In this document: positions 19,379 to 41,542 of the stretch, in pieces | How positions within the stretch are numbered: position 1 is the first letter of the stretch | Layout of the letters: every line of letters begins with the position of its first letter | Assembly (NCBI GenBank): GCA_017484165.1 | Contig: JAFUTP010000041.1 | Span: forward strand, 1 to 64,000 | Direction of reading: 5' to 3' | Length of the DNA stretch: 64,000 bases | From: Cardiobacteriaceae bacterium | Lineage (GTDB): Bacteria > Pseudomonadota > Gammaproteobacteria > Cardiobacteriales > Cardiobacteriaceae | Made by a program: the position numbers and the translations under genes | Notes under the pieces: model-generated | Told to the model about the DNA's origin: nothing | The model's database searches: none | The model's input: the letters and a program-made list of their open reading frames with translations, nothing else

Positions 19379-19553
19379 TGTGGAAAACTTGTGGATAAGT
19401 TGTTGAGTAAGGTGTTAGTTTGCGGTGAATTAGCTGTGGATAAAATTTCCAGCGAGTTTTCCACAGAATTTAAGAGGAATTTGAACGAACTTTTGCACAT
19501 TATTTTTAACGGTTTTTTATTTATTTTTCAATAAGTTAGAAGAGTTTTCCACA
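19379..19553. other. oriC: putative chromosomal origin of replication (oriC)
   Basis: Within 175 bp of the dnaA-dnaN spacer there are two perfect DnaA boxes, TGTGGATAA at 19390-19398 and 19435-19443 (TTATCCACA on the other strand). Three one-mismatch boxes of the TTTTCCACA type lie at 19379-19387, 19457-19465 and 19545-19553. A nearly pure A/T stretch at 19501-19536 could be the duplex-unwinding element. Position, box density and AT-rich tract all fit an origin. The coding-strand bias of the flanks does not help, because most genes on both sides are on the minus strand. Confidence 0.75.
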
Positions 19554-19608: not shown

Positions 19609-20862
19609 ATGCAATTTGAAATCCAGAAAGAAGCACTCGCGGCAAAATTATTAGATGTAAATAGCATTGTTGAAAAAAATAGCCCGAAAGCGATATTAAG
19701 CCATATTTACCTCAAAGCGGAAAATAATCAACTTACTTTAATTGCAACCGATACCGAACTCACCTTAACCGTATATCTTCCCGCTACGGTGATTGAAAGT
19801 GGCACAATAACCGTGCAAAGTGATGCTTTTACGCAATTAGTTAATCGTCTTGCCGATGCTGTTGTCGTAAATTGTCAAACAAAAGATGAGCAATTTATTA
19901 TCAAAGCAGGCAAAGGTAACTATAAATTACAAACCTTACCCGCCGATGATTTTCCTATCCCCGAAAGTTTTAATGCCGAAAATAGCGTTGCAATTGATGC
20001 GGGCGATTTAACTCATTTATTAAGCAAAGTGCGTTTTTCAATGGCGGAAAATGACCCGAGACATTACCTAAACGGAATGTATATCAATCCGCAAAATGAA
20101 AGTAATATCATCGAAGCAGCATCAACCGACGGACATAGATTATCAGCTGCAAGTTGTAATACGAATAGTGCAATTTCAGGTTTTGAAAAAGGTTTTATTA
20201 TTCCCAGCAAAGCGGTAAATGCTTTAATTAAGCAAATATCTTTGGATAATTTAATTTCTGAATTAAATTTGCAAAAAAAAGCGGCAACAGATGTTGAAAC
20301 AACTAACCTGTTAAACGAAAAAATCGAGCAGTTTAATAAAGTCAAAAGATTATCTAACCGTGCGCAAAAAACGGAAATGCCACGCAATTTGGACTTAAAT
20401 TTAAGTGAAAGATTGCTTAGTTTAAGCGGAGAAAATTGGATTTTGACTACACGGCTGTTGGAAGGAAAATACCCTGATTATCAACGGATTTTCCCCGAAA
20501 AACAAACAATGCCGATTTTGCTAGACAGAATGCTTTTATTAGATGCTTTGCGCCGTTTTCGAGTGATTTTGAATAGTAAAGATGAAAAAGCTTTAATTTT
20601 GCGCTTTGAGGAAAATAAACTTTCTATTTCCGCAAGAAATAATAATAGTAACGATAGCGGTGATGAGCAAATTGATATTGTGAATAATCAAAATATTACT
20701 TGTAATGTTGGAATAAATGTGCTTTATTTATTCGATGCAGCGAATAATATCAGCGGTGATTTTTTAGAACTTCATATTCAAAATCCTAATAGTCCCGTTT
20801 TGATTACATCTCAACAAGACGAACAAGTGCGCTATGTAATTATGCCGATGAATATAGATTGA
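19609..20862 (+). CDS. dnaN: DNA polymerase III beta subunit (sliding clamp) with an internal insertion
   Basis: 417 residues versus about 366 in E. coli. The ring-shaped clamp tethers polymerases to DNA. Recognisable blocks are the start MQFEIQKEALAAKL, PADDFPIPE, ASTDGHRLSAA, TRLLEGKYPDYQRIFP and the C-terminal YVIMPMNI. The extra length is one block at about residues 212-260 (from SLDNLISELNLQKK to KTEMPRN), a charged, helix-prone segment after the helix FIIPSKAVNALIKQI in domain II. AGAAGGA precedes the start and a strong terminator follows. Confidence 0.95.
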   Translation: MQFEIQKEALAAKLLDVNSIVEKNSPKAILSHIYLKAENNQLTLIATDTELTLTVYLPATVIESGTITVQSDAFTQLVNRLADAVVVNCQTKDEQFIIKAGKGNYKLQTLPADDFPIPESFNAENSVAIDAGDLTHLLSKVRFSMAENDPRHYLNGMYINPQNESNIIEAASTDGHRLSAASCNTNSAISGFEKGFIIPSKAVNALIKQISLDNLISELNLQKKAATDVETTNLLNEKIEQFNKVKRLSNRAQKTEMPRNLDLNLSERLLSLSGENWILTTRLLEGKYPDYQRIFPEKQTMPILLDRMLLLDALRRFRVILNSKDEKALILRFEENKLSISARNNNSNDSGDEQIDIVNNQNITCNVGINVLYLFDAANNISGDFLELHIQNPNSPVLITSQQDEQVRYVIMPMNID

Positions 20863-21071: not shown

Positions 21072-23339
21072 TTATTTCTTAAGTCTTGCAAAAGCATCTG
21101 CCATTGCGGTTTGTCTTGTATTATTATTACCAGTATTGGGGTTATAATTAAAGTCCTTTTTGCTACTTGACGGATTATTTTTACTCCTACCGCTATCGTC
21201 TTTTTTCATTGAAAGAGATATGCGCTTTCTTTTTTCATCTATTTCCAAAACTATTACCTTGACAATATCGCCAGTTTTGACGATTTCACGCGGGTCGGAT
21301 ACAAATTTATCCGCCAGTTGTGAAATATGCACCAAACCGTCCTGATGCACACCGATATCGACGAATGCGCCAAAATCCGCGACATTAGTAACCGTTCCTT
21401 CTAGCAGCATTCCAACTTCTAAATCTTTGATTTCATTGATATTTTCTGCAAATTCGGCGGTTTTGAATTCCCCGCGGGGATCTCGTCCTGGTTTTTCGAG
21501 TTCTTTCAAAATATCTAAAACGGTCGGTAGTCCGAATTTTTCGTCGGTGTAATCTTTGGCAGAAATTTTTCCGAGAATTTCTCGGTTACCGATGAGTTTG
21601 TCAGCTGAAATTGCAAGATTTTTTAGCATATTCTTGACAATACCGTAAGCTTCGGGATGCACGGCGGAAGCGTCGAGCGGTTCGTCGCCATCGTTAATCC
21701 GCAAAAATCCCGCTGCTTGTTCGAAAGCTTTTGCCCCAAGTCGCGGCACTTTCAGCAGAGCTTTGCGATTTTTGAATGCGCCGTTTTCATCGCGGTAAGC
21801 GACAATATTTTTTGCAAGCGTTTTATTTAGTCCTGAAATGTGCGACAAAAGCGGGGCAGATGCCGTATTCAAATCTACACCAACGGCATTTACGCAATCT
21901 TCGATCACCGCGTCTAAACTTTTTGCTAGACGATTTTGATCGACATCGTGCTGATATTGTCCGACACCAATCGACTTCGGATCAATTTTCACCAGTTCGG
22001 CAAGGGGATCTTGCAAGCGTCTAGCTATCGAAACCGCGCCCCGCAAAGCGACATCGAGATCAGGAAACTCTTCTGCTGCCAGCTCGGAAGCCGAATAAAC
22101 GGAAGCTCCCGCCTCGGATACGGTTACTTTGCGCAAATTTTGTTCGGGCAATTCCTTAATTATTTGCGCCGCAAGTTTGTCGGTTTCACGTGAAGCAGTG
22201 CCGTTACCGATAGCGATAATTTGTATATCGTTGTTTTTTATAAGATTTTTCAGTCGGGCAATTGCTTCTTCTTCCCTGTGCAGATAGACAATTTCGGTTG
22301 CAAGCATTTTCCCCGTATCATCAACCGCCGCGGTTTTAATCCCGTTTTTATAGCCAGGATCAAGACCTAGTGCGGAAATTCTTCCAGCTGGAGCTGCAAG
22401 TAATAAGTCTTTGAGGTTATGCGAGAAGACTTCAATTGCATCGGTATCGGACTTTTCTTTTAACTTTGCAATTGCTTCGGTTTCCAAAGAGAGGAAAATT
22501 TTCGCCCGCCAAGCAAGTCGCACGGTATCTTTTAGCCATTTATTTGCAGAATTTTTTATCGAAAAATGCTGACAAATGATTTTTTCATATTCCGATTGCT
22601 CGGTTGTTGGCGCGCTATCTTCTTGATATAACAGGGAAATTTTTAACATATCCTCATTTCTACCGCGCAAAACTGCCAAGGCACGATGGGAAGGAATTTT
22701 GGCAATCGCCTCACGGTATTCGAAATAATCCTTAAATTTTTCCGCCTCTTCTTTTTTATCTTCCACCACTTCGGAAGATAAAACTGCCTCATTCCAAAGT
22801 TTTTCTCGCAAAATTGCAATCAAATCGGCATTTTCGGAAAATTTTTCAATCAAAATTGCTCTTGCGCCATCTAAAACCGTTTTCAAATCGGGTAAATTAT
22901 TTTCAGGATTGATATATTTTTCTGCCTCGACTTCCACATCAATAGAACTATCTTCTAGGAATAATTCAGCCAATGGTTCAAGTCCTTGTTCACGGGCAAT
23001 TTGGGCTTTGGTGCGGCGTTTTGGTTTATATGGTAAATAAATGTCTTCAAGTTCAGTTTTATTGTCGCAGTGTTCTATCTTATTTTTCAACTCTTCGGTT
23101 AATTTTCCCTGTTCTTCAATAGACTTTAAGACGGTTGATTTACGCTCTTCGAGTTGTCTTAAATATTCTAATCTTTCCGCTAGAAGCCGTAATTGTCCGT
23201 CATCTAAACCGCCTGTTGCTTCTTTACGGTAACGGGCAATAAATGGCACTGTTGCCCCTTCATCTAATAAATCAACCGCTGCTTTAATTTGAGTTTGTGT
23301 CGCCGAAATTTCCTGACTTAATTTTTGAAAAATATCCAT
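21072..23339 (-). CDS. tex: Tex family RNA-binding transcription accessory protein
   Basis: 755 residues. N-terminal Tex helical region with [19 protein letters not shown], a YqgF-like RNase H-fold domain ([17 protein letters not shown]), a helix-hairpin-helix region ([18 protein letters not shown]), and a C-terminal S1 RNA-binding domain ([33 protein letters not shown]). It ends in a Ser/Asn-rich tail. The Tex/Spt6-like family binds RNA and influences transcription and virulence-gene expression in several pathogens. It is transcribed toward dnaN. Confidence 0.95.
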
Positions 23340-26703: not shown

Positions 26704-29700
26704 TTAGGCATTCTTATTTTTCGCCATATCCATCACCACTTTTTTAATCAACTCATAGTGCAGGGAATATTGGTTACTTATGCGTAAAATTTTACACCCT
26801 TCTGCTTTACAAATTAACTCTTTGCGCTTATCTCGGTATTTGGTTGCTTGGTCTTGATAATGTTCATCACCGTCTAATTCGATAATTAAAACTGGTCTCT
26901 TGTTATCAAAAATTACAAAATCAAATTCTGCATTTTCGTAATATTCTTTATTTTTTTCTTCGAATGTAACAAAAAGCTTATTCATAGCTACATTTCTTTT
27001 AACGCTTAAATTTTCGCTATTACTTAACACCTGACTTACCGTTTTATAAAATTCTCTTTCGGAACTTGAATTATTCGATTTATTTTTATTGCGGTATTCA
27101 GTAAGAACTTTTATTACTTCTGATTTATTATTAGCAAGCGCATAATCAACTAAACTTTTGAGTTTATTGTTTTCTACTTCTGTGTTAGGTATTCCCTCTT
27201 TATCTATAATTTTTGCGGAATATTTATCACTCAATTCGTTAATTGCATCGACATCGCAACAAATCACAAAGTTCCGTTTAGCTCTGGTGGCAGCTACATT
27301 TATAATTTCAGAGTTATTTTTAATCCAGTTAAATGTGCTTGCAGCCGTGCTTTTCGCCACCGAAGGCGACAAAATCACCGTGTCATATTCCGAACCTTGC
27401 ACGCTATGAATTGTTCCTACCGAAACATTTGTTATACCGCGATTTTTTAATCTTTCATCAATCAAAGCCGCTTGATTGCGAAAGGGCGAAATAACCGCAA
27501 CTTGCTCCCCTAGAAACCTATCTTCGCTACACAATTCGGCTACACCTTCCGCTTCTTCATAAAAACAATTGCGCTCTGGACCATATTGATTTGCAACTTG
27601 CACTATTTCTACCGCACCTTCTTGTCCTGCATTGTATTTCAATTGATTGTCATAGTAATGCAAATTGCTAAACGCGATAATTTCTTCGGGACAGCGGTAA
27701 TGATAAGAAAGTAGCACTTGTTTGCTATTTTTATCGGTTTTTGTCATTAAAGACAAGACACTCTCCCGAGTAAAGTCATACAAATCAGGACTATCAAACT
27801 CAAGATTTTTGGCAATTTTGAGCATTTGCCGCCGTTCTAAATTGATAATTGGGCGAAGTTGTTCGGTATCCCCAACTAAAAGTAAGCGTTTTGCCCGAAT
27901 TATCGGAATTAGGGAGCTGGCAATATCGCATTGCCCCGCCTCATCCATTAAGCACAAATCAAAATGGGGATTGGCAGAGCCGATTTTTTCGGCAGAAAAG
28001 TTGGTTGTAATCCAAATCGGAAAAATTTTTTGCAATTTTTGAATATTTTCGTCTTTCTTTAAGTAAGCAACGAGTTTTTTACGGGCTGTGTCAAGTAAAT
28101 TCGTTTCTAAAATTTCCAAAAAATCCACATAATCTTGGCTTGTTAATTTTTCTAACATCAGATAGCTGCGGTATTGGATATATTCCAAAAATTCCTGACT
28201 TTCAATTGCAGGAAAACATAGCTTTAATAATTCACTATCGGAAATATCATTTATTGCATCTTTTTTTGCTTGTAGCTCTGCAATTTTGGACTTGAAATAT
28301 TCATTTAATTGATTATTTTCAGCATTTGTTTCTTGCCAAATTATTAAATTTTGCAATTCTTCGCTAATTTGCAATTTTTCTTCATATTTATCGATAATTT
28401 CGGATATTTCATAGCATTTTTTCATCACGAAATATTGCCGCTTCTTTATTTCTTTACTGCTTAATTTCGGCTTGTCTTTAATTTCTTGATAAATATTTTT
28501 CAAATAAATTATGCTTTTTTCTAATTCAGATTGGTTTCCGACCCGAAAAATCGGTAAAAACAGGTCTCTTTTGGCAGTTTTCAGGCTTGTAAATTTTTCC
28601 ATTATTGCTTCTAGTGCTTTATTATTATTAGAGCAAATCAAGCAAGTTTTCTCGTTAAAAAATTGCGAGAAGATTATATTAAGAATAGTTTGAGTTTTGC
28701 CCGTTCCAGGCGGTCCCGCGCAATAAGTTACATCTTCCCGCAGGGCATTGAACACGCATCTCAACTGGTCGATGTTGATTTTGTTGTCATAAGTAATGAG
28801 AGTTGTATTTCTTTTTGCACCGCCGCGGCGAGTTTTTATTCCTAAATATGCTTTAAGCGGCATAGTTAAAGCATTATTTTCAATCATATTTTGAATACTT
28901 GCCCGCACCTCATTAAATTTCAAAAAAAATGAAAATTCAATTTCCATAAATTCAGGACGGGTATTTATTTTCCTATATCTTCCGATTATTTGTTCTAAAC
29001 GGTAAATATAAGCTTCTTTTTTATCTTGAAAATTTTTAACAAAATTATCAGCTCCTGCTTTATCAATAGTTTCAATTAAAAAATTGCGGTTGAATAAAAA
29101 TTCTGGATTTATACTTAATTCTTGTTTTTCAATATTAAAAAATACTTCTTGATAGACGATAACGGTATTTTTATTCCCGCTAGTGATTGATAAAACATTA
29201 AAAATCAAGTGGATAATTTTCTGTTGATGAAGATTTTTAGTTTCTTTGTCCTTATCTAATAAATAACGGCAAAGATTTTTACTCTGTTCTAGATTTAATT
29301 TTACACTCTTATTAGCAGAAAAAGTATCCATATCAATTCCTGCAAGCATTATTCCGCTTTTTTGCTCTTCGCTTTTATTTAATTGCAAACATTGTTCTAA
29401 ATAAAGAAAAACATTATTTTTAGATAAAAGTATTCCGAGAAAATCATCTTGTTTATCCAGCTCTTCTAATTTTTTAATTAGCCTCTCTGGCACTTGATAA
29501 GATAATTCATAAATATAACGGCAGTGAAAAATAGCATTAAAAAATATCTTGCGGTTATATAAAATTCCATCTCCATCACGAGTATTAAACATATCACCTT
29601 GCAAGATTTTCCGTGAAAAATCAATATCTTTTACCGCAAAAAAGAAATAATGCTCTTCCTTTTTTTGGTTCAAATAACCCAAATAAAGCCATTTCCCCTG

Positions 29701-29757
29701 AATTATTGCTTGGGAAATAATGAATGCAATTTCTTTTTCGGGCATCTTTGAACGCAT
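26704..29757 (-). CDS. superfamily 1 helicase fused to a C-terminal PD-(D/E)XK (DUF559/DUF2726/Vsr-like) nuclease
   Basis: 1017 residues. The N-terminal ~100 residues (KWLYLGYLNQKKEEHYFFFAVKDI) form a beta-rich domain I cannot name. SF1 (UPF1/AAA_11-12 type) helicase motifs follow: Walker A GPPGTGKTQTI, DEAG box CLMDEAGQCDIASS, motif III VGDTEQLRPI, motif IV SYHYRCPEEIIAFSN, motif V TIHSVQGSEYDTVILS and motif VI NVAATRAKRNF. The C-terminus carries AEFDFVIFDNKRPVLIIELDGDEHYQDQ...KILRIS, a Vsr/DUF559-type nuclease core. Helicase-nuclease fusions of this kind include the defence protein Hhe. It is the last gene of a four-gene operon with toxin, possible immunity and Fic genes. Confidence 0.85.
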   Translation of the reverse strand: MRSKMPEKEIAFIISQAIIQGKWLYLGYLNQKKEEHYFFFAVKDIDFSRKILQGDMFNTRDGDGILYNRKIFFNAIFHCRYIYELSYQVPERLIKKLEELDKQDDFLGILLSKNNVFLYLEQCLQLNKSEEQKSGIMLAGIDMDTFSANKSVKLNLEQSKNLCRYLLDKDKETKNLHQQKIIHLIFNVLSITSGNKNTVIVYQEVFFNIEKQELSINPEFLFNRNFLIETIDKAGADNFVKNFQDKKEAYIYRLEQIIGRYRKINTRPEFMEIEFSFFLKFNEVRASIQNMIENNALTMPLKAYLGIKTRRGGAKRNTTLITYDNKINIDQLRCVFNALREDVTYCAGPPGTGKTQTILNIIFSQFFNEKTCLICSNNNKALEAIMEKFTSLKTAKRDLFLPIFRVGNQSELEKSIIYLKNIYQEIKDKPKLSSKEIKKRQYFVMKKCYEISEIIDKYEEKLQISEELQNLIIWQETNAENNQLNEYFKSKIAELQAKKDAINDISDSELLKLCFPAIESQEFLEYIQYRSYLMLEKLTSQDYVDFLEILETNLLDTARKKLVAYLKKDENIQKLQKIFPIWITTNFSAEKIGSANPHFDLCLMDEAGQCDIASSLIPIIRAKRLLLVGDTEQLRPIINLERRQMLKIAKNLEFDSPDLYDFTRESVLSLMTKTDKNSKQVLLSYHYRCPEEIIAFSNLHYYDNQLKYNAGQEGAVEIVQVANQYGPERNCFYEEAEGVAELCSEDRFLGEQVAVISPFRNQAALIDERLKNRGITNVSVGTIHSVQGSEYDTVILSPSVAKSTAASTFNWIKNNSEIINVAATRAKRNFVICCDVDAINELSDKYSAKIIDKEGIPNTEVENNKLKSLVDYALANNKSEVIKVLTEYRNKNKSNNSSSEREFYKTVSQVLSNSENLSVKRNVAMNKLFVTFEEKNKEYYENAEFDFVIFDNKRPVLIIELDGDEHYQDQATKYRDKRKELICKAEGCKILRISNQYSLHYELIKKVVMDMAKNKNA

Positions 29758-40353: not shown

Positions 40354-40465
40354 TTTATTTAGATTTTTATGTAGTAAAAAAATAGCAATATCGCGAGATG
40401 TTTGCATTTTTTAGCCTCTTTTGTTATTTTCAAACAATAATTTTTATATTTCAAGGAAAAATCAA

Positions 40466-41542
40466 ATGCCTTATAACTCTTTGCAAAGTGTGAAAGAACT
40501 ATTGCAGAACGCAGGAAACGATATTTCGACCCTGCTTGCGCAAGTAGCGAATATCACTAGTAGCAACTCTGATAATTCTTCTGATAGCAATTCTGCTAAT
40601 ACCGTAAGTCAAGACAATCAAACGCAGGCAAAACACGACCTGCATTTTTTCGATGAAGAAGATTTAACTCCCAGCAGCCAAGAGCAAGCAAGCAAAATTA
40701 CGGGCGAAGTTGATGGATTTCAGGCTTTCGGGGAGAAAAAATCTCCGCAAGCCCCAGAGGAAGCAAAGGCAAAACCACAAGTTACGGAAAATTCTGGAAT
40801 CAATGATCAATTACAAGAGTTAATTACTTGGGCAGATGGATTAAATATTTCCGCCGATATCATTCCAAGAAGCATCGATGAACTCAAAAAAGTCAAAATT
40901 TTGGATTTATCTTCCCTGCAATTGCACAACATTACTCCTGCCATCGGTGCGGTAAGAAATGTGCAAATCATCAATTTAAGCAATAACTTTATTTCCGCTT
41001 TACCGAATACTTTCTCGCATCTTCACAATCTTCGCGAGTTATATATCGAAAACAATAAATTAAAAAGATTTCCGCCAGAAATTTGCGGCTTAAATCAACT
41101 TACCGTCTTAAATATCAACGACAACTTAATCCAAAACATTCCCGAACGGATTGACCAACTTTCCAACTTGGAAACTTTCAAAATGATGGGTAACCGTGTG
41201 GCATATTTACCGACAACCATCGGGCATTTATTAAACCTAAAAGTGCTCAATATCGGTGGAAATCTGCTGAATTCTCTGCCTGTGGAATTGGATAAATGCA
41301 AAAAACTAGAATTTTTGAATGCGAGCAAAAATCGTCTTAAAACTCTTCCTTGGCAATTGTCAAAGCTATCCTCGCTGCGGATTTTGCTGCTCAATAGCAA
41401 CGATCTGAAAAATGTTCCGAATGAATTTGCCAATCTCAAAGGTTTGCGCGAAATTGATTTGGAAGGAAATACTTTGGAGAACATTCCAGCGGGTCTTCTG
41501 AATTTAAGCAAGACCAACAATCTCAATATCAAACTAATGTGA
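40466..41542 (+). CDS. leucine-rich-repeat protein
   Basis: 358 residues from MPYNSLQSVKELL, preceded by AAGGA at 8 nt; the upstream in-frame Met lacks a binding site. The N-terminal ~120 residues are low-complexity (Ser/Asn/Asp, then Gln/Glu/Pro). Residues ~140-350 form about nine LRRs of 23 residues (LRELYIENNKLKRFPPEICGL type). There is no signal peptide. Cytoplasmic bacterial LRR proteins mediate protein interactions, and some are secreted effectors; nothing here shows export. It is directly followed by a coiled-coil gene. Confidence 0.8.
   Translation: MPYNSLQSVKELLQNAGNDISTLLAQVANITSSNSDNSSDSNSANTVSQDNQTQAKHDLHFFDEEDLTPSSQEQASKITGEVDGFQAFGEKKSPQAPEEAKAKPQVTENSGINDQLQELITWADGLNISADIIPRSIDELKKVKILDLSSLQLHNITPAIGAVRNVQIINLSNNFISALPNTFSHLHNLRELYIENNKLKRFPPEICGLNQLTVLNINDNLIQNIPERIDQLSNLETFKMMGNRVAYLPTTIGHLLNLKVLNIGGNLLNSLPVELDKCKKLEFLNASKNRLKTLPWQLSKLSSLRILLLNSNDLKNVPNEFANLKGLREIDLEGNTLENIPAGLLNLSKTNNLNIKLM

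Follow-up and report, generated by a model that had tools for sequence, protein, structure and literature searches.

The sliding clamp is essential and universal, its length is very constant, and most of its known bacterial partners use one cleft. In a 64,000-nucleotide stretch of Cardiobacteriaceae DNA (hereafter the window) the dnaN gene was found to encode an unusually long clamp, for which a preliminary description had claimed about 45 extra, charged and helix-prone residues in domain II. The question raised by this locus is whether the additional segment is real, how far it is shared, and what it may do on a ring that encircles DNA. The features considered are collected in Table 1.

Table 1. 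Features of the dnaN locus in the window, with the evidence for each.
Feature	Position	Strand	Evidence
dnaA, normal length, 452 aa	17875..19233	+	TIGR00362 over cut-off, one stretch
dnaN, beta sliding clamp, 417 aa	19609..20862	+	Pfam and TIGR00663 over cut-off; Foldseek
Insertion, residues 211–259, 49 aa in place of 5–6	20239..20385	+	alignments with relatives, viral and E. coli-type clamps
Ser200, place of E. coli Arg197 (pore residue)	20206..20208	+	alignment of carriers and 35 others
Predicted helix 200–225, second inner helix of domain II, about 15 residues beyond its normal end	20206..20283	+	AlphaFold2, full protein and fragment
Predicted returning helix, residues 229–247 (229–254 in the isolated fragment)	20293..20349	+	AlphaFold2, full protein and fragment
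E-L-x-L-Q-K-K, residues 218–224, close to the predicted hairpin tip	20260..20280	+	identical in three carriers

The protein belongs to the DnaN family by sequence, fold and functional residues. The Pfam models PF00712, PF02767 and PF02768 all scored above their gathering scores, the match to PF02767 stopping at profile position 84 of 116 with the remainder falling past the insertion. TIGR00663 (dnaN) reached 237.4 bits (cut-off 137.65) in two stretches parted by the insertion, and phmmer matches to solved clamps were split at the same place; the narrower models NF004184 (146.7, cut-off 443) and NF011508 (73.9, cut-off 513) remained below their cut-offs. The AlphaFold2 model shows a clamp fold, each monomer having six inner helices, and the top PDB matches in Foldseek were solved beta clamps, the first with a TM-score by target of 0.93. 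Of the residues that we take to form the cleft between domains II and III, Thr172, Gly174, His175, Arg176, Leu177, Pro242, Asn320, Tyr323, Met362 and Pro363 are kept in the clamps carrying the insertion. DnaN proteins usually have about 360–400 amino acids, a typical rather than strictly defining range, outside of which the window protein lies (365–373 in its relatives). As its sequence, fold and cleft all identify it as DnaN, this excess is variation within the family.

Alignment of the window protein with ten relatives placed the insertion almost exactly where it had been described (about residues 212–260), with five residues at the site in eight insert-less clamps and a net gain of 44 residues. 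In locus L059 (366 aa), which we take to be an E. coli-type clamp, the loop LDGGDN (residues 207–212) occupies the site and is replaced by the insertion, so that the segment indeed has no counterpart there. The attribute "charged" holds for the composition (9 K/R and 7 D/E among 49 residues) but not for the net charge, which is nearly neutral, as it is in the homologous insert of a second genus (+8/−8).

The insertion is genuine, conserved and lineage-specific. The reading frame contains no internal stops and the insertion lies in-frame; the frame is equally intact in G001 (JAGBJT010000008.1), a Cardiobacteriaceae genome assembled from a metagenome of water deer reticulum. Between this genome and the source genome of the window (G000), the 49 insert codons show six synonymous changes against one changed codon; over the whole of dnaN, 55 base changes are synonymous and 12 nonsynonymous. 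A homologous segment of 49 residues was furthermore detected in a second genus (G005, E 8.2e-4). Because the frame is intact, the changes are biased to synonymous ones and a homologue exists in another genus, an origin by chance or by a pair of frameshifts is ruled out. The equal length in two genera together with the synonymous bias also bears out the supposed retention of the segment, which is kept under selection. Every carrier is a draft assembly (77, about 60 and about 40 contigs), the genus of the window being represented here by draft genomes only, and this is what could be said for a frameshift pair, a misassembly or a wrong start; with frame and length equal in two species, the homologue in another genus and the synonymous bias against it, such an artefact is vanishingly improbable.

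As to its distribution, the insertion was found in three of the 11 family genomes with a clamp match (12 searched), namely G000 and G001, which belong to one genus (98% identity), and G005 of another genus (42%). The same three were the carriers among 31 matching genomes of the order (32 searched) and among 56 matching genomes of the relatives sample (57 searched), where no open frame of the other 53 exceeds 395 amino acids. The class sample gave matches in 344 of 369 genomes, and among the best-scoring ones, which were listed, only G000 and G005 were long, the non-carriers each spanning 1,092–1,119 bases. An insertion general to gammaproteobacteria is ruled out by these samples, and in the multiple alignment of the relatives' DnaN, proposed earlier as a check, the segment is confined to the three carriers. 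A profile of the insert region gave only chance-level matches beyond them, in one of 369 class genomes and two of 398 phylum genomes (E 0.004–0.008; the open frames concerned have 462, 470 and 847 amino acids), and these three weak matches are taken as chance.

A source of the insertion was sought in viruses and in other genes. Among viral clamp loci (best 80 of 153) the insert is lacking throughout, the corresponding segment having 46–59 residues versus 96 in the window protein, and a phage origin was rejected. Viral contigs scanned with the window protein alone yielded no relative, and clamps in phage records reached at most 26.9% identity among the matches listed (15 of 50 records). Borrowing from another gene was rejected: in the rest of the three carrier genomes the insert matched nothing better than E 0.1, Pfam gave no match, and none in the PDB was better than E 0.96. 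The listed alignments with solved clamps break at the insertion, and the solved clamps tabulated have 345–410 residues, fusion constructs apart. A genome-wide trend to insertions was not seen either: no comparable insertion was found among 20 window proteins scanned, about half of which were uninformative for want of a near-full-length family match, while those with such a match each aligned in one stretch. Titles and abstract openings of the literature searched revealed no comparable clamp insertion or hairpin.

The inserts of both genera have 49 residues each and align gap-free with 17/49 identities, which are unevenly spread: the first part (211–240) is identical at 15 of 30 positions (50%, compared with a core median of 40%), the second part (241–259) at 2 of 19. 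The flanking protein is identical between the genera at 95/209 positions before the insert and at 60/155 after it. Conserved residues are E218, L221, Q222, K223, K224, N236 and E237. In a dnaN tree calculated without the insert the carriers grouped weakly (52/59); in a concatenated tree of DnaA, DnaN and HolA (10 genomes, no outgroup) G000, G001 and G005 fell on one side of a branch supported by 99.7/99, which makes a single gain in the carrier clade likely. The carrier lineage forms a very long branch in both, with 1.89 changes per column for dnaN and 0.99 for the concatenated set.

Structure prediction bears out the helix-forming character ascribed to the segment. The full AlphaFold2 model (42 sequences) has a mean pLDDT of 89.5, with 69–79 for residues 211–240, 51–53 for 241–260 and below 50 for 247–256. 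Modelled without an alignment, the isolated fragment 197–263 (67 residues) gave the same hairpin, the best model with a mean pLDDT of 88.2 (70–88 for the five models) and 95–98 in 10-residue blocks over residues 207–246. The insert is thus predicted to be an alpha-helical hairpin which extends the second inner helix of domain II; the placing of the E-L-x-L-Q-K-K motif close to its tip is taken from the predicted helix boundaries. In hydrophobic-moment tests no amphipathicity reached significance (p 0.15–0.78). The Q-I-S-L-D at residues 209–213, which resembles a clamp-binding motif, was not built on, its Gln being His in G005.

The site of the hairpin directs attention to the DNA. According to the available text of PMC4976356, Asp208 and Gly209 of the E. 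coli clamp take part in DNA interactions, and the same domain II loop, short in the Helicobacter pylori beta clamp, is discussed there as DNA-interacting. Because these two residues belong to the replaced loop, a protein is no better a candidate ligand than DNA. Differences in the carriers were also found in the pore, in comparison with 35 other clamps (the E. coli-type clamp and 34 loci, with two entries for G013 and several that are closely related). Where E. coli has Arg197, 3/3 carriers have S, N or E and 35/35 others R or K; the place of Arg73 is Asp in 3/3 carriers and in 0/35 others, 25 of which are basic there. At the place of Arg80, basic in 34/35 others, the carriers have N or Q with an Arg one residue later, which by the alignment would be a shift rather than a loss. 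The available text of PMC5042465 assigns Arg73, Arg80 and Arg197 to the central pore and regards the first two as DNA contacts. Taken together, the six inner helices of the carriers have a net charge within the range of the relatives, so that there is no overall charge loss needing compensation. With pore residues altered, the insertion at a DNA-contact loop and the cleft conserved, the change in the carriers appears to concern the side facing DNA more than the one known to bind partners. Clamp domains are pseudo-twofold within themselves, and the C-face is the one bearing loops I and II; judged from this topology, the hairpin probably stands on the ring face opposite that of the loader and polymerase, which argues against a loader contact.

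We favour, with a probability of about 0.4, the reading that the hairpin is an arm acting beside the DNA, contacting or steering it. The inner helix of domain II that lines the DNA channel would run straight on into the hairpin, so that the dimeric ring would have two arms standing out from one face beside the duplex. These could contact or steer the DNA once it has come through the ring, the tip residues Gln222-Lys223-Lys224 being candidates, and such contacts might partly replace the pore contacts altered in the lineage at the Arg73 and Arg197 places, while the normal cleft would still serve polymerase, loader and repair partners. Ring face, DNA as ligand and compensation of pore contacts are parts that we infer. 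Against an arm of this kind, the near-neutral composition (+9/−7) does not suggest a strongly basic one, and the ordinary net charge of the inner helices, the non-significant amphipathicity and the 2 of 19 identities in the second part of the insert likewise speak against it; moreover, the carriers represent two lineages of probably one origin, so that the association of insert and pore changes counts as a single event on a long branch. The bolder proposal, that the clamp has evolved paired helical arms flanking the DNA behind the polymerase as a second working surface, with DNA contacts moved from pore to arms, we regard as rather doubtful; if true, this second surface would serve DNA guiding or post-replicative docking.

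Nearly as likely as an arm beside the DNA, and likewise tentative, is that the hairpin serves to dock a lineage-specific protein, such as a repair, mismatch or cell-cycle factor, to which it would offer a second site besides the cleft. The conserved residues lie close to the tip, the intact classical cleft means that any new site would be additional, and the back face of PCNA has loops and the Lys164 modification site according to the available text of PMC7225939. However, none of the clamp-related families tested emerged as a partner: the loader subunit HolA is present in 12/12 family genomes, with or without the insert, and Hda passes its cut-off in 0/12. Y-family DNA polymerases (PF00817) were not found in G000, G001 and G005 and are present in 6/9 other family genomes, which would mean a partner lost rather than gained. 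Since two of the carriers are incomplete (86.6% and 72%), as are two of the other genomes without PF00817 (G010, 78%; G011, 86%; the third, G002, is 93% complete), and genome reduction explains the absence equally well, we treat it as a lead only. That the hairpin has no special function and merely elaborates the structure, having been inserted in a loop, tolerated in a fast-evolving lineage and kept only because it folds, appears unlikely. It would then simply point away from the ring, and the very long carrier branch and the poorly conserved second part of the insert fit such a history; the equal insert length and the 50% identity of the first 30 residues in a protein pair of 42% identity do not, nor do the within-genus substitutions, which are about as constrained in the insert as in the core, and the lack of similar insertions in the other conserved window proteins with a near-full-length family match.

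Some observations concern the surroundings of the gene. Directly upstream of dnaN lies dnaA, and the gap between them contains six clustered matches to the DnaA-box-like pattern TTWTNCACA (19379–19553), two of them TTATCCACA; the whole window holds 21 such matches versus 9.5 expected. The cluster is likely a replication origin or a DnaA-regulated dnaN promoter, and GC skew displays no clear switch at the gap. Downstream, on the opposite strand, a gene with an S1 domain (21072–23339), presumably Tex-like, takes the place of recF-gyrB, whose order after dnaN is common in other bacteria. Farther away, an open reading frame of 1017 amino acids (26704–29757) resembles, by eye, a helicase of superfamily 1 type whose C-terminal part is nuclease-like. 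The product of 40421–41542 is of leucine-rich-repeat type judged from its matches, the best NCBIfam ones being effector and surface-protein families far below their cut-offs, and the repeats alone probably account for them.

With an extra arm that has evolved naturally at a loop contacting DNA, it can be tested directly whether a clamp can gain a second functional surface and which pore contacts can be replaced; were the arm neutral, it would still mark a permissive site for adding domains to clamps. In comparison with the bacterial beta sliding clamp DnaN, the window protein has the same three domains, fold, partner-binding cleft and dnaA-dnaN order, and differs by 44 additional residues, a predicted helical hairpin that follows the second inner helix of domain II, and by the pore residues altered in the carriers. 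The hairpin is hence a variation on a known, length-constrained replication protein, with a function that we infer. The H. pylori beta clamp shares with it a variable length of this domain II loop, as far as the available text of PMC4976356 describes it, the loop being shorter there, whereas in the window clamp it has 44 residues more and a helical structure is predicted for it. A possible parallel is the back-face modification of eukaryotic PCNA at Lys164 as presented in the available text of PMC7225939, since both would place an appendage away from the polymerase, provided that the hairpin occupies the face proposed above; there the modifier is attached reversibly, whereas the window clamp has its hairpin built in, and the likeness is one of functional logic and not of membership.
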